Shown in pieces: positions 21,818 to 40,381 of a stretch of DNA of 64,000 nt. Source of the DNA: Leptolyngbya sp. PCC 7375 (lineage in GTDB: Bacteria; Cyanobacteriota; Cyanobacteriia; Phormidesmidales; Phormidesmidaceae); NCBI RefSeq assembly GCF_000316115.1, contig NZ_JH993797.1, forward strand, positions 2,342,486 to 2,406,485, read 5' to 3'. A program made the position numbers and the translations under genes. Every line of letters begins with the position of its first letter. The first letter of the stretch is position 1. The notes beneath the pieces are model-generated. The model was not told the DNA's origin, searched no databases, and saw nothing but the letters and a program-made list of their open reading frames with translations.

Positions 21818-22717
21818 ATGGATAAGTTTGCGGCCATTCATGCATTTGTACAGGTCGTGGAAGCTAAGGGCTTTGCCGCCGCCGCGCGGGACATGGGTAT
21901 GTCGCGATCAGCAGTCAATAAATTAGTGATTAGCCTAGAAACAGAATTAGGGGCACAACTTTTGCAACGCAGTACCCGCAAGGTCACGCCAACGGCGACG
22001 GGTACCGCCTTTTACGAACGCTGTTTGGGTATTCTGGCAAACCTGGAGGAAGCTGAGTTGGCGGTTTCTCAAGCCCAAGTTGAACCGGTCGGACCGCTGC
22101 GAATCAATGCTCCAATGACCTTTGGCACCATGCATTTAGGCCCCATTCTGGCAGATTTTATGGCGCAATATCCTGGGGTCCAGGTGCAGCTGACGTTGGA
22201 AGATCGGTTTATAGATCCATTAGCAGAGGGATTCGACCTCACGGTACGCATTGCCCAACCCCAAACATCCCTGCAGTTGGTGGTGCATGAACTGGCTCAA
22301 CTCAACTGTTTACTCTGTGCTGCGCCTGAATATTTATGGCATCGAGGAATTCCCCGATCAACGCAGGATTTGGGTAACCATAATTGTTTGGCCTATGGTG
22401 AATTGTCAGGTCGCCATGAGTGGGTATTATCAAATGGCAATAAAGAAAATAGAGTCACTGTCACTGGGTCAATGTGCTCAAATAATGGTGAAGTGCTCAG
22501 GGACGCATCCATTCGCGGATTAGGGATTGTTTTATTGCCTCAGTTCATTGTTAAGCAAAGTTTAGCTTGCTGGGACCTGCAAGAAGTGGTGTTGGATTAT
22601 CAACCTCGGGCATTATCGCTATGTGTGATTTACCCGATCAATCGACATTTATCCCCTAAAGTACAGCTGCTAACAGCATTTTTGCAGAAACGGTTTGAAC
22701 GATTGTTTACGCCATAG
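21818..22717 (+). CDS. LysR-family transcriptional regulator
   Basis: The 299 residues comprise an N-terminal winged helix-turn-helix (1-60: [20 protein letters not shown] then [20 protein letters not shown]) and a LysR substrate-binding domain (about 90-295) resembling the CrgA/PtxR group ([17 protein letters not shown]). It is transcribed divergently from the pirin gene, its likely target. The inducer is unknown. Confidence 0.95.
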
Positions 22718-26412: not shown

Positions 26413-28161
26413 TCAAAACGGCGTGTATTGCACTGAGAAATAAATCCCACTGTCCTGTAGTCCTTCATCGTCCGTATCCAAATCTACTAAGGGAATGCCC
26501 CAGTCTATGCGGGCCGACACGTTGTTGCTCTGTTGCCAGAGTAGGCCAAAACCAATACCTGCCAGCGTATCGGGTCCCGGTGAACTACCGTCATCATTCC
26601 AAACGGTGCCCACATCGACAAAGGGCGTCACTTGCAACAGGCCATCCAGCTCTGGCACCCTGGCGATGGGCCAGCGCAGCTCTGCCGATAACAGCGCCCC
26701 GTTATCCCGTCGCAAAGCATCTTGCCGATAGCCTCGTACGCTTTGACCACCGCCTAAACTGAACTCTTCCTGGGAGAGCAAATCGTCAGTGGTCACCTGA
26801 ATGTCACCCCGTAGAAAAAAGAGCTGATCTGGTTTGCCCAACAGTTTTACCCATTGCCCCTGGCCTCGCCAGGAAAAGAAACGGCTGTCAGGTGCATCAG
26901 TATTGATGTTGGCATCAAGTAAATCAACACCGACATTGAATTGAGATCGCAATGCCAGTACATGACTCTGACTACGCTGGGTCCATTCTTGAAAAAACCG
27001 CACAGTACTAATGCGAGTGCGACCATTATCATCGGCCCCCGGAGACAGGGGAAATGGCCCAATATCATCAATGCCTAAACGGGTCTGGCTGGTCTGGTGG
27101 GAGAGTGTGAGGCCCAAAGCCGCCGACTGGGTGGGGGTTTCAATCAAAGGGCGACGATAACCCAACTCATAATAGGCACTGTCAGAGGAAATATCGAGCA
27201 CTGAGAAGGCAGAATTGATCACCTGGCTATCGGCATACCCAGCGGCCAGTCGAACCGTATCATCATTGGGGCTAACCGGCAGAGTATAGCTAAAGTCCAC
27301 ACCATCACTGCCATCAGTGTGCTTATAGCCCAGAGTAATGCGATCGCCAATACCCAATACGTTGCCTTCGTCTACACCGACACTTACCTGAGTCCCCCCA
27401 ATATTGGGCGACCGGCTGTTGGCCAAGCCCGTATTAACCGCAAATGAATCAGCCTCAACAATATCGATAACCAGCAAACTAGTGCCCTGACTCACACCTG
27501 CCTGCAAATCAGCAGAAACTGTCTCAATTAATGGATCTAGCTGTAACCGCTGCAACCCCGCTAAAAGGTTATCAACGTTAAGCGGTGGCTGGGCCACCAA
27601 ACCTACACGGCTCCGCACATAGTCGGGCTGTAACCGCTGGGTGCCCCGAACAATAATTTCTTCTAACTCACCCTCAATCACTTGAACAATGACCGTATCA
27701 TCGACCAGGGTTTGGGGTGGAATAAACGCCCCTGACGTTAAATATCCTGCATCTAAATATCGATCAGTAATCGCCGAACGCAGTTGTAACAGTTCATTAA
27801 AACTAACCTGGCGACCACGATACTGGTCCAGCAGATCCGCAAAATCGTCTGCATCAAAAATCGTACTGCCAACAACTTCAATATCTGCCACATAGAAAGC
27901 AGCATCACCCTCACCTAGATCATCCTGCGGCGATAATGTATCTCCACCAGGCGATAGCAACTCATCGGGCGAAGGTAACGAAGGTGGCAAGGGTTCATCT
28001 GGCAACGGTATTTCGGGGGGGGTATCAGGAGGGAGCGGCGATACCTGGGCTATGAGAGCGCCTGAAGGCCTTTGGCCAATAGCCGAATACAAGAGTAAAC
28101 AGCCACATTGCCCTAAACCCAACAATACTTTAGCTAATAATTTGTCTCTCAATGCCATCAT
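26413..28161 (-). CDS. Two-partner secretion outer-membrane transporter (TpsB/FhaC/ShlB)
   Basis: This 582-residue exported protein has an N-terminal hydrophobic segment (about 10-38), a Pro-rich linker (41-80), POTRA domains (about 88-240, with FYVADIEVVGS and VIEGELEEIIVRG) and a 16-strand barrel. VRGYR at 475-479 is the conserved L6-loop motif. TpsB proteins translocate a TpsA partner across the outer membrane; the clear candidate is the exoprotein at 37709-40381, 9.5 kb upstream on the same strand. The rest of the co-directional block separates them. Confidence 0.93.
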   Translation of the reverse strand: MMALRDKLLAKVLLGLGQCGCLLLYSAIGQRPSGALIAQVSPLPPDTPPEIPLPDEPLPPSLPSPDELLSPGGDTLSPQDDLGEGDAAFYVADIEVVGSTIFDADDFADLLDQYRGRQVSFNELLQLRSAITDRYLDAGYLTSGAFIPPQTLVDDTVIVQVIEGELEEIIVRGTQRLQPDYVRSRVGLVAQPPLNVDNLLAGLQRLQLDPLIETVSADLQAGVSQGTSLLVIDIVEADSFAVNTGLANSRSPNIGGTQVSVGVDEGNVLGIGDRITLGYKHTDGSDGVDFSYTLPVSPNDDTVRLAAGYADSQVINSAFSVLDISSDSAYYELGYRRPLIETPTQSAALGLTLSHQTSQTRLGIDDIGPFPLSPGADDNGRTRISTVRFFQEWTQRSQSHVLALRSQFNVGVDLLDANINTDAPDSRFFSWRGQGQWVKLLGKPDQLFFLRGDIQVTTDDLLSQEEFSLGGGQSVRGYRQDALRRDNGALLSAELRWPIARVPELDGLLQVTPFVDVGTVWNDDGSSPGPDTLAGIGFGLLWQQSNNVSARIDWGIPLVDLDTDDEGLQDSGIYFSVQYTPF

Positions 28162-28355
28162 CCGATTGATATGCCATCCGGCAAAGTTAGAAACTATAAG
28201 CTGTCTCAGGGTGGCCCGTTCGTAGCATGATTTTCAACGTTTCAGCAGTATGAGCGTTTGATAACGGGGTCTAGAATAACAGAGAAACGATGTCAACGAA
28301 CCTATGCCAATGGCATCAATATCGCCTACCAACAACGTTAATCTGCTTTCATTAG

Positions 28356-29753
28356 CTAAATTATTCCAGATTGGAGCGGCAACATCAGGGTAAAACACGT
28401 TCCCTGTCCTAAAGTAGATGTCACATCAATAGAGCCACCGTGCTTATCAACTACAATTTGCCGCACGATAGCTAATCCCAAACCTGTCCCCCGACCAACC
28501 TCTTTGGTTGTAAATAAATGATCAAAAATGCGTGGTTTGATCGCCTCATCCATACCTGCGCCGTTATCTTCAATTTTTATCACAATATTATTATTATTTA
28601 CTGCCAAGCCAGTGCTGACAGTTATCAGATTTACTCGGGATTGACGCATGTCACAACTGGATGATTGATTAACATCATCCAACGTATCAATGGCATTGGC
28701 TAACAGATTCATAAACACCTGATTGAGTTGCCCCGCAAAACATTCAATTTCTGGAATATTCTGGTAATGTCTCTTAACTGCGATTTCTGGTCTAGTTTCA
28801 TTGGCCTTGAGGCGATGTCGCAGAATTAGCAATGTGCTATCAAGACCTTCATGGACATTAAACAATACCTTATGTTCTTTGTCTGCCCGTGAAAAAGTTC
28901 GAAGACTATCGCTAATATTATGAATACGCTCCATGCCAGTGAACCAGGAAGACAAAATCTTTGCTAAGTCCTGGCGTAAAAATTCCCATTCAATTGTTTC
29001 AATCTGCTCTTGAATGGCCTGCCCTGGCTCTGGAAATGTCTTTTGGTACGCTTCAACTAAAGCTAACAGATCTTGAATATACTCTTGGAGGGGTTCTAAA
29101 TTACCTTGCAAAAAACTAATAGGGTTATTGAGCTCATGGGCTACACCTGCCACCAAATTCCCCAATGCCGACATTTTTTCGCTTTGGACTAGCTGTAACT
29201 GAGCCTGCTGCAATTTTTCTAGGGAATCTGACAATTCAGCCGTACGTTGCTCAACCCTATGTTCAAGTTCTTGAGCTAATTGTTGCAGCCGAGATTCTGC
29301 CACAGTTTTGTCAGTAATCTCCTGGGTTAACAATTTATTCTTTTCTTCTAACTCTTGAGCCAGAAATTTCAAATGCAAATGAAGTTTGACGCGAGCGATG
29401 ACTTCTTTTTGCTGAAAAGGTTTAGTGATATAATCTACAGCCCCCATCTCTAACCCACGCACTTTATGGTCAGAATCCGAGAGGGCGGTCATAAAAATAA
29501 TGGGTATTGCTTTCGTTTTAGCGTTAGTCTTTAGCCGCTGACAGGTCTCAAAACCATCAATACCTGGCATCATCACATCCAGTAAAATGAGACTAGGCTG
29601 AGCATATTGAGCCTGTTCAATGGCAGATACTCCATCAGTCGCAACCAGCATCGTCCAATCATTACCTTTTAGCACATCGGACAGCATTTTTAAGTTTGTG
29701 GGCTTATCGTCCACAAGCAAGATCCGCACTGGTTTATCAAAGGAGACACTCAT
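28356..29753 (-). CDS. Response-regulator/histidine kinase (REC-HisKA-HATPase)
   Basis: The 465 residues carry an N-terminal receiver (phospho-acceptor Asp59 in LILLDVMMP, Lys111), a coiled-coil linker (about 128-190), a HisKA with [11 protein letters not shown] (His206), and a C-terminal HATPase domain ([25 protein letters not shown]). This is an input-by-phosphorelay kinase of the kind common in cyanobacteria. Its start overlaps the CHASE2 kinase stop by 4 nt (ATGA), so the two are translationally coupled, and the CHASE2 kinase is its likely donor. Confidence 0.94.
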
Positions 29754-32551
29754 AAAAATCTTCTCGATGACACGTGAGCTTGCAATAGTTGTTTGATTTC
29801 TGAAATTTGAAAATTTTCAGCCAACTTTTGTAGGGTGTTAATTAACTGTTGTGATTGAGCGTCTGTCACCACCAGGGTCTTTAGCCTTTGTTCAATACCT
29901 TGAACGTTCCCCATCATCGCCCAGTCATAAAGCTCATCTAAAACAGCATCAGGAATTAAAACAGGTATATGGACACCTATGTCAGCAGGCTGACGTGTGT
30001 CAAGGGTAAGATTATTAAAATCGCTCTCATCATATATCCACTGTAGGTCGAGTAGCGTTTTTAGCGTTTCTGTTAAAGCATCTAAATCAATGGGTTTGGG
30101 TAAGAAAACATTAGCTCCAGCCGCTAAACTTCGTTGGCGGTCAGCTTCAAAAACACTAGCACTGATGACAATGGTAGGTATGGCATTGAGTTCTTGTGTC
30201 TGGCGTAACTGCTGAAGAAATTCAATGCCATCTAAATTTGGCATGATCAAGTCAGTAATAATCAGATCAGGGGGTTGCTGTTTGACAAACTCTAGGCCTG
30301 CGCGGCCATTATCAACACTATGGGCTTGGAATCCCATGTAATCGAGAAAATCTAACAACAGGTTAGCGTCTTCCGCACTGTCATCAACCACTAAAATACT
30401 AGGGACTTTCCCTTTAACGCCAACAATGGTTTGATTTGAAGCAATCGGGTGATTACCATCGCCATAGTCCAAGACAGGAATTTCCAAGTCCATCCAAAAT
30501 AGACTGCCTTCTCCTGGCGTACTGCGCACCTGAAGTTGGCTACCCATTAAATTGACAATTTGTTGACTGATCGCCAACCCTAAACCTGTGCCTTCTGACT
30601 TACGCTGGCTATTATCAACCTGTTCAAATGGTCTAAAAATCTGTTCCAATTGATCCGCAATGATGCCAATTCCCGTATCTTCAACCGATATGCGTAACCG
30701 ACAACTGTGAGGTAGCTGTGGTGAATGACCAGAATGGAGATTATCCAATTGTTCTACTCTGAAAGTAACGCTGCCTTGATCGGTAAATTTGATCGCATTG
30801 CCAATCAAATTGATCAAGACTTGGCGAAATCGTTTTTCATCAATCCGCACGATCTGAGGCAGGGGGTAATCAAGGTCAACGTTAAAAGCCAGCTGCTTGG
30901 CACTAGCCCGAATTTGACACATCTCAGCCACACCAGATAAAAGTGGTTCTAGATAAACATCTTTGGGAAACAGTTCAAGCTTACGTGCCTCAATTTTTGC
31001 AAGGTCCAAAATATCGTTAATCAAAGTAAGCAAATGATTGCCACATTGATGAATAACTGAAATTTTATTGTGTTCTTCGTTCGTTAACGTCCGTGAGTTT
31101 TGCAAAATTTGGGCATATCCCAAAATGCCATTAAGGGGAGTACGCAACTCATGGCTCATGTTGGCTAAAAACTCACTTTTTGCTTGATTAGCACTATCAG
31201 CAGCCTGTTTAGCTTGAGCCAGTTCTTGGGTGCGTTCCTTTACTCTTGTTTCCAGGGTGAGCGAATAATCCAAAAGCTGTTGGTTAGAAAATTCTAATTG
31301 TTGATTTGTGAGTTGTAACCGATGCTTTTTAAAGCGACTAGTCGTTGCGATCGCGCTACCCACCAAAGCAGCCATCGGTGATACCACAGGGACTACCCAT
31401 CCCAGCAAAAAGCTGACATAACTTCCCCCCAGCAACAACACAGTACCCATTGCCGTGACAATACTTGGCATTAAAAACCAGCGCTGCTGACGATTTTCTT
31501 GATGATTATAGGTTTCCAAAAACCAGTTGCCCACGGTTCCAAATAAGGACCATAGGATAATCCAGGCCCATTGATACTCCCATGTCCATCCCTTCAATAA
31601 AGGTCGCTGTCCCAGGGCAATGTTTAATAGATAACTGGTAATGTTGGCATGGACAAGCACACCAGCCATACGCCGATCCGTAGGCATGAAGCTATTACTG
31701 TAGGGAGTACCAAAAAAGTCCTTAGTACTGGCTGCCACTGAACCGATATAGACAATGCGATCGCGCATCAAATTCTCAGGAATATTACCAGCCAGCACAT
31801 CCATAATTGAAATTTGCTGATATCGTTGACTGGGGCCATGCCAACCCATCAAAATTTGATAGCCCCCCAGCTCACTATGGGTATAGCCTGCCGCCCGTCG
31901 CACCATCGGCAAAAAATCAGCCTGCCCTAACCGAAAGTGCTGTCGATCAGAATTTATAGCTTCAAGAAAAATATTATCCTTTTCTAAATAATTAAGGGCG
32001 GCTTGAGTACCCAACCCAGTTTTAATAACAGACGTTCGTTTATCTTCAGCAACGATTAAAATACGTCGAATTGTTTGATCTTTGTCTACCACAAAATCGG
32101 CAACAGCCACCTGGCCAGAGTCTGCCAAGATCGGTGGAGGGGCTACCTGCGTACCAAAAACCTTTTCAACACCGATGAGTTGAGGCGTTGTCTTAAAAAC
32201 ATCCAATAATTGTTGGTGCCCTGGCTCTTCCGGTAAATCTCGATAAAGATCTAACCCAATCACTCGAGGCTGCTGAGTTCGAATATTGTTCAACACCTGG
32301 GCCAAGGTTTCATCAGTAATCGGCCAGTGCCCCAACGCCTGGATATCTGGCTCATCTATGGTGACCACCACTACCCGCTCGTCAGTAGGCCCTAACCAAC
32401 GACGACGATAGAACTCATCGCGTATAGTCCATTCCAGCAAATTTAATAGACCAAACCCATTAGCAAACATCACAATAGCCGCCACGCTGGGTGCCACCAG
32501 CCAAATGGGCTTAGCTTGTTGAATAAATTGTCTCAGGGCAATTAAAAACAC
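29750..32551 (-). CDS. CHASE2-domain hybrid sensor histidine kinase
   Basis: The 933 residues run: an N-terminal TM helix, a periplasmic CHASE2 sensor (about 35-320, [10 protein letters not shown] ... [18 protein letters not shown] ... [12 protein letters not shown]), three TM helices (about 322-400), coiled coil (405-450), HisKA (His467 in [13 protein letters not shown]), HATPase (about 575-690; [15 protein letters not shown]), a receiver (Asp767 in ITDLIMP, Lys819) and a C-terminal helical region of about 110 residues. It starts with GTG 32551. CHASE2 is an extracytoplasmic sensor of unknown ligand. It couples with the 28356-29753 kinase. Confidence 0.95.
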
Positions 32552-32705
32552 GTACTGATTAATCTATCTGTCAAAATTACACTCCATGCAGATGTTATGA
32601 AGTATTCAAGATTTTCTGTCTAAATCAGTCAATGATGATCGACACACACCATTCACCAGCACAGTTTAGACTTCATTTTTAACAGGTAATATACGCTGCG
32701 GGTAA

Positions 32706-33593
32706 TTAAAGAAAAGACTGCTCTAACAGTACATCTAAACCAACCGATCCAAGGAATTCAGTCCAGTTAGCAACCGTATCAGCCTGGGTTTGAGAGTTGA
32801 TTTGTAGCGCAGCCAGTTGCTCAGCAGCATCGTACCAAATACCAGCCTGGGCTAATGCCTTAGCTTTAGCTAAACCATCTTGCGTAGGACAATCTGCCTG
32901 AGCCAGCACCAAGGCCATATCAACTCGCTTAATCCAAGCTGTCACGTAGGGACTACCTGGATTAATATATTTGCCCGTTTGCAATGTGACATACCATTGA
33001 TAATATTCACCAATGGATAATTCTGGAGCCCCCTCTGGCAGAGTAATCCTTAAAATGCCATCAGCCTTATTCAGAGGAACAACCTGACGATAAATGACTG
33101 ATTGCGTCTCATCTTTAAGACTAAAAATTGCAGTATGAGCCTCAGTTTCAGGCAAATAAGCCATGATTGTAGGTCGCGCTGAAACAGTGAGGCCATAAAG
33201 AGTTGATGGGGTTACCGCCAACATAGCAGTCACATTGTTGTTATGGGCAAATTCATCTACTGCCCCAACATTTGGCAAGAATAGTGCAATATCTTCAGCA
33301 TCCCCTACTCTAGACGCGCCACTCGCAGCTTGGTCAGGGGCAGAATTTTCTGGCGGTGGAATAAAACCAATGCGCGTCGCACCGCCATCTGCACTTGCAG
33401 GTGCTGAATTATCTTGAGGCGGAATAAATCGAATACTACTACCGCGAGAGGCCCCCCCATCAGCTTGAGGGGGGGCGGTGTTATCACTTGGAGGAATAAA
33501 GGTCACGGCTAAGCCTGGCGATAGGGTGACTAGCCAGACACCTAGAACCGTCCCAGCAAATCTGACCAAACGTATCGACACGCCACACTTCAT
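32706..33593 (-). CDS. DUF928 domain-containing protein
   Basis: From ATG 33593 the protein has 295 residues; a signal peptide (about 1-29, SPGLAVTF) is followed by three imperfect copies of an FIPPxDNxAPxxADGGASR unit (about residues 30-95), then a DUF928 domain, with GLTVSARPTIMAYLPE, IGEYYQWYVTL and AKALAQAGIWYDA. DUF928 proteins are periplasmic, mostly cyanobacterial, and of unknown function. The GTG at 33608 adds five residues. The gene lies between the CHASE2 kinase and the IS insertion within the two-partner-secretion block. Confidence 0.85.
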   Translation of the reverse strand: MKCGVSIRLVRFAGTVLGVWLVTLSPGLAVTFIPPSDNTAPPQADGGASRGSSIRFIPPQDNSAPASADGGATRIGFIPPPENSAPDQAASGASRVGDAEDIALFLPNVGAVDEFAHNNNVTAMLAVTPSTLYGLTVSARPTIMAYLPETEAHTAIFSLKDETQSVIYRQVVPLNKADGILRITLPEGAPELSIGEYYQWYVTLQTGKYINPGSPYVTAWIKRVDMALVLAQADCPTQDGLAKAKALAQAGIWYDAAEQLAALQINSQTQADTVANWTEFLGSVGLDVLLEQSFL

Positions 33594-33608
33594 AGTCATC
33601 AGCCTCAC

Positions 33609-34027
33609 TCAACCCCCAGTAAGATTTCTGAAGTAATGATCCATAGGAACACAATCTTGCAGATGACCCCTTATGAAAGCACCAAAAGCATGACTGACCT
33701 TCGGCACACCGCATCAAAATTGAAGGCTGAAGGTTCCTTTCAAAAAATATGCATTGTATGAAAGCACCAAGACGTCAACTAGAGCTAGAGTAATTCTTTA
33801 ATAAACAGATTTCTAATGGAAATTGTAACTATTTAGCAACAATATCGCTGTCATCCATGACAAGTCTTTGTCAATTTTAATAAAAAAGGAACCACTTACC
33901 CTTATTTATTTCAGCACCTTACGGCGCAAAATAATAAAAAATAGGCTCAATAGCTGTTTTAGGGAGGTTGCTAAATTCAAGATGAGCAGAGTAGTGTCAT
34001 GGAATAAAGCCCCCGGTCAGCCTACCT
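33609..34027. other. Gap between DUF928 gene and the transposase
   Basis: This 419-bp AT-rich stretch separates the DUF928 gene from the transposase. It includes a 13-nt direct repeat ATGAAAGCACCAA at 33673 and 33758. A 77-codon minus-strand frame at 33484-33717 is an overlapping shadow of the DUF928 start. The IS left end should lie in the last 100 bp, but I could not find a terminal inverted repeat. Confidence 0.5.
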
Positions 34028-34956
34028 ATGCTAACGCTTTCCAAGTTAATCGATGAGGACAAATGCTACGAGACTATTCGCACGATGCGTTGGCCCGATG
34101 GTGTTTGCTGCACTGATTGTGGAGCGAAAAACATTACCAAACGAGGGAAGCATGCAACCTATTCAGCGCGGCAACGCTATATCTGTGGCGAGTGTGGTCG
34201 CCACTTTGATGACTTAACCGACACCATCTTTGCGGGTCGTCATCAACCGTTAAAAACCTGGATAGCATGCTTATATTTGATGGGTCTCAATGTCTCCAAT
34301 CAACAAATTGCCGACGAGTTGAGTCTGCACAAAGATGACGTGCATCAGATGACGAGTGAGTTACGCCAAGCGGTGGCCGACAAGCGCCCAGAAGTCCAGT
34401 TATCAGGGACGGTGGAGTTTGATGAAGTCTATGTGACAGCCGGTCATAAGGGGCAACCAGAGCAGGTTAAAAAAAAGGGCGCAAGGGACGCAGACGTAAA
34501 CTCAAAGGGCTTCGGGGGCGCGGTACGCTCGAAACGGAAAAACCGCCGATCTTCGGGATGATTCAGCGAGGTGGAGAAGTGGTGATTAAAATGCTGGCAA
34601 ATGTTCAACAACAAACCATCAAGCCCATCATTCAGTCCATGGTGAAACCGGGCACCCTCATCTATACCGACGAGTATGACATCTATGCTCGTTTAGAAAC
34701 TTGGGGCTATGCTCACAAGAGTGTTTGCCACAGTGCCGGAGAATATGCCCGAGATGACGATGGAGATGGCTTCTGTGAAGTCCATGTCAATACGATGGAA
34801 GGTTTCTGGTCATTGCTGCGGTCATGGTTGAGACCTCATCGAGGGATCTCACAAGAAAAATTACCGATCTATTTGGGGTTCTTTGAATTTGTGCATAATG
34901 CTAGAAAAAGAGGGAAAGCCTTGCTGGGTAGTCTATTGAGCACCTTGCTTGTCTAA
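34028..34956 (+). mobile_element. IS1595-type insertion sequence (transposase region)
   Basis: The two-frame transposase at 34028-34956 marks an insertion sequence opposite in direction to the flanking genes. It separates the CHAT gene from the DUF928 gene. Terminal inverted repeats and target duplication were not found, so the true ends (probably within about 34.0-35.1 kb) are not fixed. The insertion splits an otherwise co-directional block. Confidence 0.8.
34028..34956 (+). CDS. IS1595-family transposase in two overlapping frames
   Basis: The first frame (34028-34561, 177 aa) has a zinc ribbon with CCTDCG and YICGECGRHFDD, then DDE-type EFDEVYVTAG. The second frame (34558-34956, 132 aa) has LIYTDEYDIYARLE and HVNTMEGFWSLLRSWLRPH, the IS1595/ISXO2 core. 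Joined by a -1 shift at the A8 run (34469-34476), the product reads ...KKGRKGRRRKLKGLRGRGTL and on into PPIFGMIQRGG, which matches the family's single-frame architecture. Either programmed frameshifting or slippage makes full transposase, or the copy is a frameshifted remnant. Catalytic residues appear intact in both parts. Confidence 0.85.
34469..34476 (+). promoter_or_regulatory. A8 slippery run joining the transposase frames
   Basis: Eight adenines followed by GGGC sit just before the two frames diverge. A -1 shift here reconstructs a normal IS1595 transposase. A7-A9 runs are known sites of -1 ribosomal frameshifting and of RNA polymerase slippage in IS genes. They are also mutation-prone, so an assembly or single-base indel is the alternative. 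Confidence 0.6.
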
Positions 34957-35012
34957 CTCCCTGAAACGCCGATTGAGCCAAAAATAATCAGAAAGACCTT
35001 TGCCATGAGCTT

Positions 35013-35080
35013 TCCCCGTAAATCCACGGAAAGACTGTTGTGAGAAAGTATGGGCAGTTTTTCCGTAAATCCACGGAAGT
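35013..35080. repeat. Two copies of hairpin TTCCGTAAATCCACGGAA
   Basis: CCGTAAATCCACGGA occurs at 35016-35030 and again at 35063-35077, 47 bp apart, each able to fold a 5-6 bp stem with a 6-nt loop. They lie between the transposase stop and the stop of the CHAT gene (minus strand), so they could be terminator-like for the CHAT transcript or belong to the IS right end. Two copies are too few for a CRISPR. Confidence 0.6.
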
Positions 35081-35107
35081 TTCTTGTCTTCTTTTAACAG
35101 GCTCACC

Positions 35108-37708
35108 TCAGAGCCAATTACCAATGAGTACATAGGCTGACCAGAAAAAGGGATCGGCAAAGTCTTTTTTGTTTAAAAGGTTTAATTGTGCCTGGCGCAG
35201 GGCTTCTGCTTTAGTTATTCCAGATTGTCCTAAATTTTTATAAACATCAATCATCAGCTGCTTAGCCACTTCATCCTTCACAGACCAAAGTGTGGCCAAC
35301 GTGGAACGGGCCCCCGAGCGCACCGCTAATCCAGCCAAACCTAGCAAGGCCCGATCATCCCCTGTAGCAGTTTCACAGGCACTCAAGGTTAATAGCTCAA
35401 TCGCCTGACTACGGTCTGCTTCTCTACGTTGCAGTAGCTCTGACAGTTCATTGATATTGATCGCTCCATCCCAAGTCAGGAAAAAGGTTTGGCTAAAATC
35501 AGAGCTAAACTGACCATGACTTGCCAAGTGGAGAATATTGACTTGGCGAGCGGCCAAGCTCTCGCGTAAAGCTTGACGCGTAAACTGTTGATCTAATAGC
35601 TGAGATGAAGGAAATAGCTTACTGATATTGGCCACCTCTTCTTTAACGGCAGGCAATGCCGTTAAACGGCCACGAGCTTGACTAATACCAGCAACAATCC
35701 CCCTAGCATCTTGGCGATCTAATGCATTAGCAGGTAGAAGCTTTAAACCAGGGGATAGGGCAACAGCATATTTTTCAATTAGGTACTGCTGTCCATCGTG
35801 GAGAGCGGCCATGGGCAAATTGCGTAGCAGACCGTCTAAAACAAATACCAGTGTTTGATCTGACTTGAGGATACCAGCGTCTTCTGCCGGACGGATCAAC
35901 CAGCTATACAGGGTTTGAGCATAGCTTAACTGTTCCTGGAAATCGGTAGATGGATGCAAGCTCGCCAAAAATGAACGCAATGTTACCTCAAGAGTCGTGT
36001 ATTCAATCTTGGTTTCGTACACTTGCAGCGGATGCTCGAACTGAGAGTAAATGACCGCCAATCGATCATCCAGAATGATGGCATAGACAACCGTAGCGTT
36101 GGGATCAATTTGCTCCACGTTACTACTCTCGATGTCGATACAAGCTTCCCGGAAGAAATTATCTAATGCAGCTATCTGCAGGTTTTCTAAAACGAGTCGT
36201 GCTTTTTCTAGAGAGTCCTGACTACCTTCCCTCAGGAGTTGTGAAACAAGATCTCGATAAACGGGCTCGACCTGCTCTCGATAAGAAAATTGAATATCTT
36301 GATTGATCGCTAGCAGATCCCCTCTTAACAGCTGAAGGGCGTCCACAGCCTTGGTATAAGCTTCGATGGATGATTGTAATTCTCCCTGTTGCTCCAATAG
36401 CTTGCCCAGTTGCCAGGCTGACTGAGCAATGATGTCTGCCGACTGAATTGATTCGGCTATAGCAAGGGATTTTTGGGTCAGATTAAGGGCATCGGTAGAT
36501 TGTTGGTTCTGACGATAAAGCTGTCCCAACTGAAAGAGAGAATACGCTTCTGCACGCTGATCTTTGAGTACGCTTGCGGCCTTAACGCCATTGGTCAATA
36601 GCTGATGTATTTGAGGTGCAGATAGGGGCTGAGCATCGCGGGGGAGGCGGGCCAGGTGGTGAGCCAGGTTCACCGTACTGTATATGGTTGTCCGGCTAAG
36701 GGGCAGGGTAACAAGCTGTGTTTGAATTTGCTCTGTGATTTTTGGAATCGCGATGGTGTCGTTGAGTTCAATATAGGTGGAGAGTTTATCTAAACGAGCC
36801 TGAAGCTGATCGAGGGGAGTGAGCGCCGCGTCCTCTGCAGCCTGGAAGTACTCTAGTGCCTTATGGGGTGACTCTATCCTGGCGGCCAATTTACCAATAC
36901 TTAAGAAAATAGAACTGAGTTCAGATTGAGATGCCTCTAAATCGCGGGCAATTTCAAGACTTTGGGCCAGAGCGTTATAACTCTGCTGGGGAGAACCGAT
37001 TAGCTGTAACGCTTGCCCCAAACTGCGCAGTGCTGCAATTTTTAACTCACCGTCAGGCATAGTATCTAGCTGTTGCGTAATGGTTTGCAACTGTTGCTTG
37101 GCACGTCGGTAAAACCCTAACGTTTGTAATGCCTGGGTCTGATTAATTCGAGCCCCTAAAGCACCTGCTGTGTCACCGACCTGGAGATAGTAAGTCTCCG
37201 CCTTTTGCCAAAGCTCTAGAGCCGTTTTAGCCTGCCCACTATGGTTAAGGACCAGGCTGGCTTGCGTATTCAGAGTTTGAGCCCAAAGAATGGGTTCTGC
37301 AAGGGAGGCGCGCTCTAGCAACGTGCGACTATTTTCAATTGCTTGATGGGCCTGGTCCCAATTATTGAGCGCTTGATGGGCAGAGGCAATGCCATTCCAG
37401 CCCATGACTTGACGGGCTAGATCTCCTTGCTGAGCAGCTTGCTGGACTGCCATTTGCCATTGTGCAATGGCAGTGGCGAACTGTCCTGATTGGTAGTAAG
37501 TGCGTCCGGCAGCCAGGGGGGCTGTCTCAGGGGCAATCTGCAACGCAGCAGGTATATCTTCGGTAACGGCTGGAACAGGTAAAGCAAGGGGGCCAAGGGC
37601 GATCGCAACCGCCCCCAAAAATCCCAATACCCCAATCCCAAACCAATGGAGTCCTTTAAAGTTGAACAACGTCAATCCCATCTCACCTAGTCTATTTTCT
37701 CCCATCAT
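35108..37708 (-). CDS. TPR-CHAT domain protein with N-terminal membrane/signal segment
   Basis: The 866 residues begin with a hydrophobic segment (about 22-46, FGIGVLGFLGAVAIALGPLA), so the protein is probably exported or membrane-anchored. Tetratricopeptide-like repeats fill about 65-460. A C-terminal CHAT (caspase-HetF-associated TPRs) domain occupies about 595-866, with both catalytic residues: His731 in HLASHGQ and Cys778 in LSACETATG. CHAT domains are caspase-like cysteine peptidases. The start codon directly follows the TpsA stop (TAA-ATG), implying coupled translation. It may process or monitor the exoprotein, an inference from arrangement. Confidence 0.93.
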   Translation of the reverse strand: MMGENRLGEMGLTLFNFKGLHWFGIGVLGFLGAVAIALGPLALPVPAVTEDIPAALQIAPETAPLAAGRTYYQSGQFATAIAQWQMAVQQAAQQGDLARQVMGWNGIASAHQALNNWDQAHQAIENSRTLLERASLAEPILWAQTLNTQASLVLNHSGQAKTALELWQKAETYYLQVGDTAGALGARINQTQALQTLGFYRRAKQQLQTITQQLDTMPDGELKIAALRSLGQALQLIGSPQQSYNALAQSLEIARDLEASQSELSSIFLSIGKLAARIESPHKALEYFQAAEDAALTPLDQLQARLDKLSTYIELNDTIAIPKITEQIQTQLVTLPLSRTTIYSTVNLAHHLARLPRDAQPLSAPQIHQLLTNGVKAASVLKDQRAEAYSLFQLGQLYRQNQQSTDALNLTQKSLAIAESIQSADIIAQSAWQLGKLLEQQGELQSSIEAYTKAVDALQLLRGDLLAINQDIQFSYREQVEPVYRDLVSQLLREGSQDSLEKARLVLENLQIAALDNFFREACIDIESSNVEQIDPNATVVYAIILDDRLAVIYSQFEHPLQVYETKIEYTTLEVTLRSFLASLHPSTDFQEQLSYAQTLYSWLIRPAEDAGILKSDQTLVFVLDGLLRNLPMAALHDGQQYLIEKYAVALSPGLKLLPANALDRQDARGIVAGISQARGRLTALPAVKEEVANISKLFPSSQLLDQQFTRQALRESLAARQVNILHLASHGQFSSDFSQTFFLTWDGAININELSELLQRREADRSQAIELLTLSACETATGDDRALLGLAGLAVRSGARSTLATLWSVKDEVAKQLMIDVYKNLGQSGITKAEALRQAQLNLLNKKDFADPFFWSAYVLIGNWL

Positions 37709-40381
37709 TTAACGAGGCGATAATGAACAGGTAGCCCTGAGATTTGGTGGAACAGCGGCATTAGCTGTAACTAGCTCAACTTGACCAAGCTCATTCTTGT
37801 ACCAGACATTGGCCTCCGCTAATGTCGCATCAGTGGACACATCCGGTACCTCACCCTGCACGTCACCCTGGGCGGGGTTGAGAAAAGGAGTGAGGTCGCG
37901 GGTATCAGTCCAGGTGAGAGCTCGACTCATATTCTCAGTCGGGACCACAGGAACGCCCCCTCGCCCCGTGGCAATAAACCGATTACTCCCACCCGTACAC
38001 CCTTGAGCAACCTGGTTACTCGTATCAGCCAAGCTTGCAGGCAGTTCTACCAAACCGGCATCTGGTTGGACATCAAAGTTACTAATGGCAACCGTACCAC
38101 TAAGACCAAACTCAGAACTTGCGGTAATGTCGTTATTTGGGGTGAGTTGCCCACGGAACACTAACCCAAACAGCCCCTTGGTCGTAATATCAATGTTGCC
38201 ACCACTGCCAAATACTGCATTGGCAACAATGTCACTGTTCTCTAAACCAACTATCACGGGAGCCGTTAGGGTAATGTTTCCCCCTGTTGCCATGCCCGTG
38301 GCGCTGGTAATTATCTGACTATTCTGACGCAGCAAGATAACGTCAGTTGCCATGATGTTGAGATCCCCTTCATTACCTCCAGTTACCTTAGCTTGAAGGG
38401 TGCCATTGTTCAGAGAGAGTCTCTCAGTAGAAATCGTTAAGTTACCCGCAGCGCCGCCATCAAGGCTATTGACTGATACACTGCCCCCATCACGAACCGT
38501 AATCTGGTTACCGATGAGATTAACTGAACCCGCATCGGCACTGGTTCTCGAACCAGACATAATGCCGCTACTCAGCAGATCATTCGTCGATTGGCCGATG
38601 ACCTCAATGTCATCGGCACGAATCGTTACGCTTCCTGCATTACCAGTTCCATCCGTAGACGCTGTAATTTGCCCACCGTTATACACAGTTAAGCGATTTG
38701 CTTCAATATCTAACGACCCACCATTGCCCGTCGAACCCTTCACTGCATTGGCCACTAAACCACTGACTGCCCCAGTAAAATCTATAATCGGATCAGCAAC
38801 GTCTATTTCATCCGCTCGAATAGTAATATTTCCCCCATCCCCATCTCCAACTGTGTTGACAGCGACTTTACCCCCCTGCACAACACTTAATCGCGGAGTG
38901 GTGATACTCAAGTTGCCAGCATTACCAGTAGAGCCAGGTTCAGCCGTAGAAAATAGACCACTTGACAAAGGTCCCGCTACAGATGTGTTAAATCCAGTAA
39001 TTTCCACAAAGTCTGTTGCCACCACGACTAACTCACCAGCATCACCACCTGCCCCCTGAAGCGGCCCTGTGCCTATCTGGGCTCCATCACGTAGGACTAA
39101 AGATCCAACATTCAGTTTTAAATCACCACCATTTCCAGCATCAGACCCTACTCCAAACACATCATTAGTCAACCGTGAAATACCCTGAGCAGTTAATTGC
39201 TCAGCAGTAATTTCAATGTCTCCTCCTCGTCCAGTGTCAAACGTGCCTGAACTAAGAACAGTTGCAGCTTCATTTCCGTCAGGATTACCCAAAAGAAAAA
39301 TCTCGTTTGCGTTGATGGTCATACCACCACTAACACCTGAAGCCTCAGTATCGGTGATGATCCAGGCGGCTTGACTCAGTAATAACTGGCTGACCTCAAG
39401 CACCAAATGGTTACCTCGTCCCTCATCAAAAACATTCACGAAGATAGCACTGGTAATATCGCTGCTATTTGTACCAGTCACCTCTAACTGTTCAGACGCT
39501 CGAATGGTCACCGTTCCACCATCGATTGGTCCCAGATTAGAGGCTTCCAAAGTAGCATTACCAAGTAACCTCACATTACGCCCCTGAACTTGGAATCTAC
39601 CACCGCCATCACCACTGACATCAGCATCGGTGCCTTGGTCGAGGGTAATATCCTGAAAAGAGGTTGCTTTGGTGTAGGCCAGCACAAAAGTATCTAAATC
39701 CAGACCAACTTGACTACCGGAGGCTACGCTACCTAGAGACAACATGCCTTCAGGGGCGTTCAAGAGACTTGCTGTAAACTGAAGATCTCCCCCTAAGAAT
39801 CCTAGGGATTCTCCTGGATTAACCACTAGACTTCCTTGCTCCACAGTAATTGGCCTGGCAACAGTGCCAAACTGTAGGCCTACTGGCACACTCACTGACA
39901 ACAAAGGAGCATCTCCAGGCTCACGGCTGCTGAAACTCAGACCATCATTGAATAAAACACTTTCTGCTGTACTGGCAAAAAATGAGCCTGGCAACAACAA
40001 CTCTACATTAGCGCCAAAGGTAATGCCGTTGGGATTAATCAGAAAGAAATCTGGATTGTTACCACCAGTTAGCTGTAATCGTCCATCTATCAAAGAGAGA
40101 TTTGTACCGGTTACGCGACTAATAACAACATCTACAGTACTCTGAGTGCCATCTAACTGAAATAGAACATCAGCTGTATTCGGTGAAAATTCTTGAAAAC
40201 TATGGAACAGTGTGGTCAGTTGCTGGCTACCTCCAGTGACTGTAAAGGAAGCATTGCCTGAAACGGTTGTACCCACCGTTCCATCGGAAACTACGTTCTG
40301 GCCATAGCTAGGGCTAACATATACCAAAACCCCGAGCAGACCCAGCAGACCCACACGCCAGGCAAATAGTCCATTGCTCAT
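37709..40381 (-). CDS. Two-partner secretion exoprotein (TpsA, filamentous haemagglutinin-like)
   Basis: The 890 residues have a signal peptide (about 1-27, SPSYG before QNVV), an N-terminal TPS domain (about 30-270) with the secretion motif NPNG at 116-119, a long beta-helix passenger of GN.G.L.I...L.V..GG repeats (about 290-790), and the C-terminal signature NRFIATGRGGVP found in cyanobacterial members. It should be carried to the cell surface by the TpsB at 26413-28161. Function could be adhesion, aggregation or contact-dependent activity; no toxin domain is visible. The stop codon abuts the CHAT start. Confidence 0.93.
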   Translation of the reverse strand: MSNGLFAWRVGLLGLLGVLVYVSPSYGQNVVSDGTVGTTVSGNASFTVTGGSQQLTTLFHSFQEFSPNTADVLFQLDGTQSTVDVVISRVTGTNLSLIDGRLQLTGGNNPDFFLINPNGITFGANVELLLPGSFFASTAESVLFNDGLSFSSREPGDAPLLSVSVPVGLQFGTVARPITVEQGSLVVNPGESLGFLGGDLQFTASLLNAPEGMLSLGSVASGSQVGLDLDTFVLAYTKATSFQDITLDQGTDADVSGDGGGRFQVQGRNVRLLGNATLEASNLGPIDGGTVTIRASEQLEVTGTNSSDITSAIFVNVFDEGRGNHLVLEVSQLLLSQAAWIITDTEASGVSGGMTINANEIFLLGNPDGNEAATVLSSGTFDTGRGGDIEITAEQLTAQGISRLTNDVFGVGSDAGNGGDLKLNVGSLVLRDGAQIGTGPLQGAGGDAGELVVVATDFVEITGFNTSVAGPLSSGLFSTAEPGSTGNAGNLSITTPRLSVVQGGKVAVNTVGDGDGGNITIRADEIDVADPIIDFTGAVSGLVANAVKGSTGNGGSLDIEANRLTVYNGGQITASTDGTGNAGSVTIRADDIEVIGQSTNDLLSSGIMSGSRTSADAGSVNLIGNQITVRDGGSVSVNSLDGGAAGNLTISTERLSLNNGTLQAKVTGGNEGDLNIMATDVILLRQNSQIITSATGMATGGNITLTAPVIVGLENSDIVANAVFGSGGNIDITTKGLFGLVFRGQLTPNNDITASSEFGLSGTVAISNFDVQPDAGLVELPASLADTSNQVAQGCTGGSNRFIATGRGGVPVVPTENMSRALTWTDTRDLTPFLNPAQGDVQGEVPDVSTDATLAEANVWYKNELGQVELVTANAAVPPNLRATCSLSPR

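Follow-up and report, generated by a model that had tools for sequence, protein, structure and literature searches.

What brings a secreted exoprotein, a caspase-like protease, a DUF928 protein and a pair of sensor kinases together in one cyanobacterial locus? The six minus-strand genes that raise this question occupy part of the window (the whole stretch of 64,000 nucleotides from Leptolyngbya sp. PCC 7375 that was analysed), and all of the open reading frames and domains given for them in the initial annotation were reproduced with Pfam. Our preferred answer, to which we assign a probability of about 50%, is that the whole set forms a trans-envelope signalling module.

The genes are accompanied by an insertion. 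The initial annotation described a head-to-tail arrangement, which holds for the six genes themselves but not for the interval between the CHAT gene and the DUF928 gene, where a plus-strand IS1595-family insertion sequence of 1,036 bp (about 33944-34979) separates the two. Its transposase is encoded by two plus-strand ORFs (34028-34561 and 34558-34956; Zn_ribbon_IS1595, PF12760, and DDE_Tnp_IS1595, PF12762), its termini are GGCTCAAT...ATTGAGCC, and it is probably flanked by a 7-8 bp target duplication (AAAAATA). The element matches 40 places in the genome, 22 of which are near-full-length and 99-100% identical, this copy counted. The same locus in Adonisia turfae CCMR0081 (96-97% DNA identity) lacks the element and has a CHAT-DUF928 gap of 456 bp. 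Like the Arg-motif repeats of DUF928 and the swapping of receptor outputs described below, the element was absent from the initial annotation. Directly 3' of CHAT lie two hairpin-forming TTCCGTGGATTTACGG(AA) repeats (35011..35078, minus strand), which are present in A. turfae too; we considered them as a dispersed repeat and ruled this out, as these two copies are the sole ones in the genome. Scans of the locus for sigma-70-like and terminator-like sites found them no more numerous than in shuffled sequence.

We assessed whether the gene set is a local accident and found that its linkage exceeds chance. In this genome, 14 of 15 DUF928 genes are paired with a CHASE2 gene. The order TPR-CHAT, DUF928, CHASE2 hybrid kinase with response regulator, response regulator-kinase recurs in Nostocales, Oscillatoriales and Leptolyngbya-type genomes, and the co-occurrence in other cyanobacteria that was expected at the outset was thus found. 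When one DUF928 locus was taken from each of 40 genomes, CHASE2 was nearby in 22, CHAT in 17 and TPS in 13, against a chance level of a few per cent as estimated from CHASE2 density. DUF928 occurs in 49 of 146 genomes, and all 49 also have CHASE2 and TPR-CHAT relatives. Two points count against the signalling module here: 12 of the 40 DUF928 loci have no partner nearby, and one collection of compared loci was seeded with CHAT. Among the paralogs of this genome, DUF928 distances are correlated with those of CHASE2 (r=0.46, p=0.0005, n=14) and CHAT (r=0.41, p=0.017, n=9) but not significantly with those of TPS (r=0.14, n=10), although such correlations may arise by joint duplication and do not require contact. 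Segmental duplication could yield the linkage as well, and the genes might then simply be inherited side by side after duplication, without acting together. We regard this as very unlikely, since the set persists while gene order and strand differ between loci, gene presence agrees across genomes, and the TPS-CHAT fusions described next are independent of one another.

The secreted part of the locus resembles two-partner secretion of the FhaB/FhaC type, with which it shares a TPS-domain exoprotein and a POTRA_2/ShlB transporter. TpsA (890 aa; 37709..40381, minus strand) has a signal-peptide-like N-terminus, as read from the sequence, followed by the TPS domain (residues 30-264; PF05860, 1.3e-35; also NCBIfam TIGR01901, filamentous hemagglutinin N-terminal domain) and a passenger. 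TpsB (582 aa; 26413..28161, minus strand) matches POTRA_2 (PF08479), POTRA, ShlB (PF03865) and Omp85 and is the putative cognate exporter; it starts 194 bp past the last kinase gene and is the least constant neighbour of the set. What differs from FhaB/FhaC is that the exoproteins here are paired with or fused to CHAT and that 28 TPS domains in this genome face only 7 ShlB transporters above the cut-off. Of these 28 exoproteins, 21 adjoin or are fused to a CHAT domain (12 TpsA/TPR-CHAT neighbours and nine single-frame TPS-CHAT proteins). The fusions, in which CHAT forms the C-terminus, have arisen independently at least five times. CHAT is therefore tied to the TPS exoprotein, most strongly where the two share one reading frame. 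A conserved "tail" of ~40 residues following CHAT in the fusions was considered as a sorting signal and rejected, being the normal C-terminal end of CHAT that the profile misses.

TPS exoproteins of FHA-type systems often undergo proteolytic processing. CHAT could be an adhesin maturation protease whose substrate is TpsA (or, in the fusions, CHAT itself), which it would trim or release, with the kinases regulating expression of the locus and DUF928 as an accessory. At 42 places TpsA directly precedes CHAT on the same strand, which fits this alternative, as does the placement of CHAT in the fusions, which corresponds to the processing region of FhaB-type proteins. It is nevertheless doubtful, given that TPS does not co-vary with DUF928 in this genome, that DUF928-CHASE2 pairs exist with no TPS nearby (loci L084, L086 and L087), and that it leaves the swapping of outputs unexplained. 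The processing of the adhesin by CHAT, as initially proposed, is likewise not directly supported, and it is the exoprotein that fails to track the other components within this genome.

The TPR-CHAT protein itself (866 aa; 35108..37708, minus strand; Pfam CHAT, 3e-58) is a predicted exported protease. Its start was said to abut the TpsA stop, which is true of the most upstream ATG only. The start common to A. turfae, Met10 (37681), is preceded by AGGTGAG and lies 27 bp past the TpsA stop here (87 bp in A. turfae); Met10 is likely the true start. Both catalytic residues noted earlier were found, His731 (codon 35516-35518) and Cys778 (35375-35377, both on the minus strand), and the dyad is invariant in the alignment (95/95 linked and 11/11 fused CHATs). 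A cytosolic prediction would have counted against the proposed location of the protein outside the cytosol; instead, export is predicted from a hydrophobic N-terminal segment, which 87 of 91 linked CHATs possess, the other four having truncated ORFs or borderline values. A search of the PDB by sequence returned TPR proteins only for the whole TPR-CHAT profile and no match for the CHAT part alone. With Foldseek, the best solved-structure matches of the CHAT model were Csx29 (E about 1e-15) and separase (1e-13), at TM scores normalised to the query of about 0.3-0.5. The dyad together with this modelled fold places the protein among clan CD separase-like peptidases, and proteolysis is predicted.

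The Csx29 match invites comparison with Craspase (type III-E CRISPR), in which Csx29 cuts Csx30 and, according to PMC10028731 and PMC11106740, cutting of one partner starts signalling. The TPR-CHAT fold and the Cys/His dyad are common to both systems. The protease here differs in being predicted to be exported, in lacking an adjoining gRAMP/Cas7-11, and in being grouped with TPS, DUF928 and CHASE2. Between positions 22000 and 45000 of the window there is no unexplained ORF of gRAMP size; the ORFs around the CHAT gene are TPS, IS1595, DUF928, CHASE2 and kinases.

On the cytoplasmic side, the CHASE2 protein (933 aa; 29750..32551, minus strand; Pfam CHASE2, 2.4e-58) carries CHASE2, HisKA, HATPase_c and REC and is a hybrid two-component kinase. 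The gene of the REC-HisKA-HATPase kinase (28356..29753, minus strand) overlaps it by ATGA at 29750-29753, as first described, and this pairing recurs in about 20 related loci. The outputs carried by 44 DUF928-linked CHASE2 proteins are diverse: CHAT (11), GGDEF (9, with EAL in 4), cyclase (8), HisKA_3 (6), AAA_35 (5), TIR (1) and SpoIIE (1). That the kinase controls the peptidase, as the initial annotation proposed, is not supported, and the inner part of the receptor is freely exchanged (HK, GGDEF, EAL, cyclase, AAA, TIR, CHAT). A readout role fits this exchange better, and we read the kinase as a readout rather than as the controller of an adhesin-processing protease. The TIR and CHAT outputs, along with the expansion of paralogs within one genome, could also speak for a conflict or recognition system, in which surface TPS-CHAT proteins act on neighbour cells or phages and CHASE2-TIR/CHAT/AAA proteins trigger defensive death or dormancy. 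This seems highly improbable to us: the domains that recur most as outputs (kinase, GGDEF, cyclase) belong to ordinary signalling, no small gene resembling an immunity gene was seen as a constant neighbour, and among the PADLOC models for described anti-phage defence CHAT and DUF928 match none, while the kinase matches weakly through REC.

The possible link between protease and receptor is the DUF928 protein (300 aa; 32706..33608, minus strand; PF06051, 3.6e-41). It has a signal-peptide-like start, three Arg motifs, and a modelled beta-sandwich domain (residues 124-297) with C-terminal helices. The motifs are tandem copies of FIPPxxNxAPxxAxxGA[ST]R (33309..33500, minus strand; residues 37-55, 61-79 and 82-100). 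Across relatives the copy number reaches six, with Nostocales having up to about six near-identical units of about 22 residues. The most conserved letter of the motif is its terminal Arg (Arg100 is Arg in 97/101 relatives), after which come small or polar residues that lead into a disordered linker. This near-invariant Arg is a candidate protease site. Two Cys residues (both present in 78 relatives, neither in 16, and in none the first without the second) form a conserved, disulfide-like pair that links the stretch following the motif with the domain. The motif could alternatively be a docking element, its FxPP..AP..GGASR copies binding a neighbouring DUF928 beta-sandwich (or CHASE2) and the repeats setting oligomer size, with the target of CHAT elsewhere. 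The Cys pair is in keeping with docking, and so is the third copy, which is modelled beside the domain as partly ordered rather than as a free loop (pLDDT 65-80). We had considered that the motif might be confined to DUF928 proteins adjoining CHAT; this was rejected, as 13 of 17 DUF928 proteins with neither CHAT nor CHASE2 adjoining keep it (loose pattern). The motif is therefore not tied to an adjacent protease, which again agrees with docking and, like the modelled order of the third copy, counts against the signalling module. We still find docking quite unlikely, considering that the conserved Arg and what follows it are as expected for a P1 site. A sequence search found no DUF928 relatives in the PDB, and the fold search gave only an Ig/FnIII-like match (MtxA C-terminal domain, 4z29; E 7e-4, TM about 0.5) that is too weak to name a function.

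Within the trans-envelope signalling module, TpsB would display TpsA, and the exported TPR-CHAT, in the periplasm or at the surface, would watch or be triggered by the exoprotein or its contacts. Once activated by an event at the level of TpsA or of the envelope, CHAT would act on DUF928, the putative extracytoplasmic partner of the inner-membrane CHASE2 receptor, most plausibly by cleaving the GGASR-type motif behind its conserved Arg. Altered DUF928 would then engage CHASE2, whose cytoplasmic part would give the output: at this locus a phosphorelay of the hybrid kinase and the coupled REC-kinase, and elsewhere the synthesis of c-di-GMP or of cyclic nucleotides, or else an AAA ATPase, a TIR domain or a further CHAT domain. 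Support for this module was computed here: the genes are recurrently linked, TPS and CHAT are fused in places, CHAT has the dyad, the fold and an export segment, DUF928 co-varies with CHASE2, outputs are swapped, and DUF928 carries the Arg motif and the disulfide-like Cys pair. From them we infer its physical contacts, protease activity, substrate and direction of signalling. A protease-activated receptor system, in which exported or exoprotein-borne CHAT cuts DUF928 after the conserved Arg and the product fires CHASE2, is in our estimation unlikely. Under it, cleavage in Nostocales would free up to about six near-identical DUF928 peptides of ~22 residues; the protease would in some loci be built into the surface exoprotein itself, and some CHASE2 receptors would bear another caspase-like domain on the cytoplasmic side, so that the signal would pass inwards by a caspase-to-caspase relay.

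No description of a TPS-CHAT-DUF928-CHASE2 set was found in the literature searched. Leptolyngbya boryana Dgc2 and a Trichodesmium metacaspase-CHASE2 protein likewise combine extracytoplasmic CHASE2 with a GGDEF or caspase-like domain. CHASE2 ligands are given as unknown in PMC10581220 and PMC3501461; neither mentions DUF928, CHAT or hemagglutinin, so CHASE2 is not linked there to DUF928, TPS or exported CHAT. One CHASE2-DUF928 neighbourhood has been reported, the WD40/CHASE2/DUF928 cluster of Nostoc punctiforme (PMC5587647), which concerns one species, is tied to WD40 genes, lacks CHAT and TPS, and carries no claim of generality. The Synechocystis DUF928 protein sll1891 is acid-stress responsive, as cited in PMC5587647.

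Among bacterial sensor domains CHASE2 is a common one for which no ligand is known, and DUF928 can now be offered as a named candidate partner. Cyanobacterial genomes also carry dozens of caspase-like CHAT proteins with no assigned role, for which the linkage offers DUF928 and TpsA by name as candidate substrates. If our reading is true, a separase-family protease would be located outside the cytoplasm. The linkage unites DUF928, CHASE2 and CHAT, each with no assigned function, ligand or role, in one testable pathway, and their joint inheritance with the secreted surface protein in many cyanobacteria points to an undescribed route by which signals may pass from the cell surface to the interior.

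ORF calls and domain searches confirmed the genes, strands, coordinates and domains of the six-gene locus at 26413-40381 (minus strand: TpsA, TPR-CHAT, DUF928, CHASE2-HisKA-HATPase-REC, REC-HisKA-HATPase and TpsB), but the initial annotation had overlooked a plus-strand IS1595-family element at 33944-34979, between the CHAT and DUF928 genes (ends GGCTCAAT...ATTGAGCC; transposase in two ORFs). The element has 40 matching places in this strain's own genome, of which 22, including the window's, are near-full-length copies (99-100% identity), the rest being fragments and divergent copies. The counterpart locus in Adonisia turfae CCMR0081 (L001; DNA 96-97% identical) has the run TpsA, TPR-CHAT, DUF928, CHASE2-HK-REC, REC-HK and TpsB without the element at that site. 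The insertion is therefore recent, and it may be polar on the operon's lower half in this strain. The TpsA stop abuts the CHAT gene as described only if the most upstream ATG is taken as the start; with the start common to L001 (Met10), which lies 27 bp downstream and is preceded by AGGTGAG, it does not. Directly 3' of the CHAT stop, at 35011-35078, are two palindromic hairpin repeats (TTCCGTGGATTTACGGAA), also present in L001 and without further copies in the strain's genome, which form a possible RNA or regulator site.

Profile searches of the strain's 9.42-Mb genome, with neighbourhoods annotated by profiles grown from the window's domains, returned 15 DUF928, 25 CHASE2, 28 TPS and 7 ShlB-type genes above cut-off, together with 45 CHAT-related places. 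A CHASE2 gene adjoins 14 of the 15 DUF928 genes (<1 expected by chance, by our estimate from 25 genes in 9.42 Mb), and CHAT is encoded in 10 of these 14 clusters too, with or without fusion to TPS. In total, 21/28 TPS exoproteins adjoin a separate TPR-CHAT gene (12) or are fused to CHAT in a single frame (9); both domains were found by Pfam in those fused frames that were checked. Because 28 exoproteins face just 7 ShlB-type transporters above cut-off, most exoproteins of this genome must go through shared transporters or through other pores of the Omp85 type.

The co-occurrence of the gene set elsewhere in cyanobacteria, as initially proposed, was borne out. The order TPR-CHAT, DUF928, CHASE2-HK-REC, REC-HK is conserved across Nostocales, Oscillatoriales and Leptolyngbya-type genomes, and 57 long loci located via the CHAT protein contained DUF928 (46), CHASE2 (44), TPS (39) and TpsB (10). 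Since this set was CHAT-seeded, we also drew a DUF928-centred sample (40 genomes, one locus each, chosen among listed higher-scoring genes and thus not strictly random), in which CHASE2 (22), CHAT (17), TPS (13) and TpsB (8) occurred within ~10 kb, and none of the four in 12/40. DUF928 was detected in 49/146 sampled genomes of the phylum, all in the window's own class, and all 49 carried CHASE2 and TPR-CHAT relatives, with genome size a partial confounder. The window locus belongs to a large and so far unnamed family of cyanobacterial gene sets. L104:1920-16012 is an array of four TPR-CHAT genes; TPS, DUF928 and CHASE2 are not among its neighbours in the same genome.

Pairwise distances of DUF928 and CHASE2 were correlated across 90 loci (r 0.84) and among 14 paralogous pairs within the strain's genome (0.46; p 0.0005). 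The corresponding values were 0.73 and 0.41 (p 0.017, n=9) for DUF928-CHAT, and 0.56 and 0.14 (not significant, n=10) for DUF928-TPS. These correlations mark CHAT, DUF928 and CHASE2 as the core and the exoprotein as an exchangeable outer part; joint duplication can also produce correlated distances, without contact between the proteins. The earlier designation of the locus as an adhesin-processing system exceeds the evidence. Single-frame TPS-CHAT fusions, about 1,300-3,900 aa long, are spread over many families and start with signal-peptide-like and TPS sequence. Judging from the CHAT-domain tree, on which the TPS-CHAT type is a single group and four TPS-TPR-CHAT proteins require four separate origins, CHAT joined TPS at least five times. 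A TPR-CHAT protein at L112:8110-11964 has an N-terminal extension resembling a TPS passenger, lacks the TPS domain, and clusters with an Acaryochloris TPS-TPR-CHAT fusion.

With regard to the protease, the N-terminal hydrophobic segment and catalytic residues (His731/Cys778) first noticed in the window CHAT are common to its linked relatives, the segment in 87/91 proteins and both aligned residues in 95/95 linked and 11/11 fused domains. The segment is also found in most of the unlinked TPR-CHATs in that set (16/22), so export would be a trait of the TPR-CHAT family and would not distinguish this locus. Predicted export could involve a cleaved signal peptide or a membrane anchor, with a periplasmic or surface location. 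The structure model of the 866-aa TPR-CHAT is confident (pLDDT 87.5), and its best solved-structure matches are separase and Csx29, the TPR-CHAT protease of Craspase.

The globular part of DUF928 was modelled as a beta-sandwich followed by helices; sequence searches found no relative of known structure, and the structural match was weak. The stretch from the export signal to the domain carries the motif FxPPxxxxxPxxxxGG(A/G)(S/T)R, with one copy in most proteins, three in the window and up to six in Nostocales (units of ~22 residues). Its strict form is present in 73/118 DUF928 proteins (5.5 expected from shuffled N-termini), and its final Arg is conserved in 97/101. Of 2,089 ORFs other than DUF928, just 3 carry the motif together with its context, one of them resembling a DUF928 gene cut at a contig end. 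A Cys just past the Arg and one in the sandwich are both present in 78 proteins and both absent in 16, the window's included; 7 have only the second and 0 only the first, joint variation such as a disulfide would give. An Arg and flexible segment tied by a putative disulfide would be the expected look of a protease-activated protein, for which CHAT is the obvious candidate protease. Docking is another possible role, given that the motif is retained also in DUF928 proteins without adjacent CHAT and that its last copy is partly ordered in the model.

The inner part of DUF928-linked CHASE2 proteins, a hybrid kinase in the window, is freely exchanged. The 44 scanned carried CHAT (11), GGDEF (9), nucleotide cyclase (8), HisKA_3 kinase (6), AAA_35 (5), EAL (4), SpoIIE (1) or TIR (1) domains, and His and Cys are kept in the 15 CHASE2 proteins truly bearing a CHAT region. 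AAA_35 is an additional kind of receptor output; long non-CHAT N-terminal regions occur in CHASE2 genes near DUF928 at L050, L061, L065, L068 and L168, that of L050 being confirmed as an AAA_35 ATPase domain. In the DUF928-linked receptor at L092:10559-13810 the cytoplasmic end consists of several TIR domains, which resemble Thoeris-type TIRs. Output exchange on a constant DUF928-CHASE2 pair suggests that information passes from DUF928 via CHASE2 inward, the reverse of the kinase control over the peptidase first envisaged.

In the open-access journal literature searched, we found no report joining CHAT with either DUF928 or two-partner secretion. A single CHASE2-DUF928-WD40 cluster has been noted in Nostoc punctiforme (PMC5587647), where a Synechocystis DUF928 protein is cited as acid-responsive. 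Metacaspase-CHASE2 proteins (PMC3501461, PMC2853523) and a CHASE2-GGDEF protein, its CHASE2 ligand stated to be unknown (PMC10581220), have also been described. Overall, a trans-envelope signalling module with a predicted exported caspase-like protease fits best.
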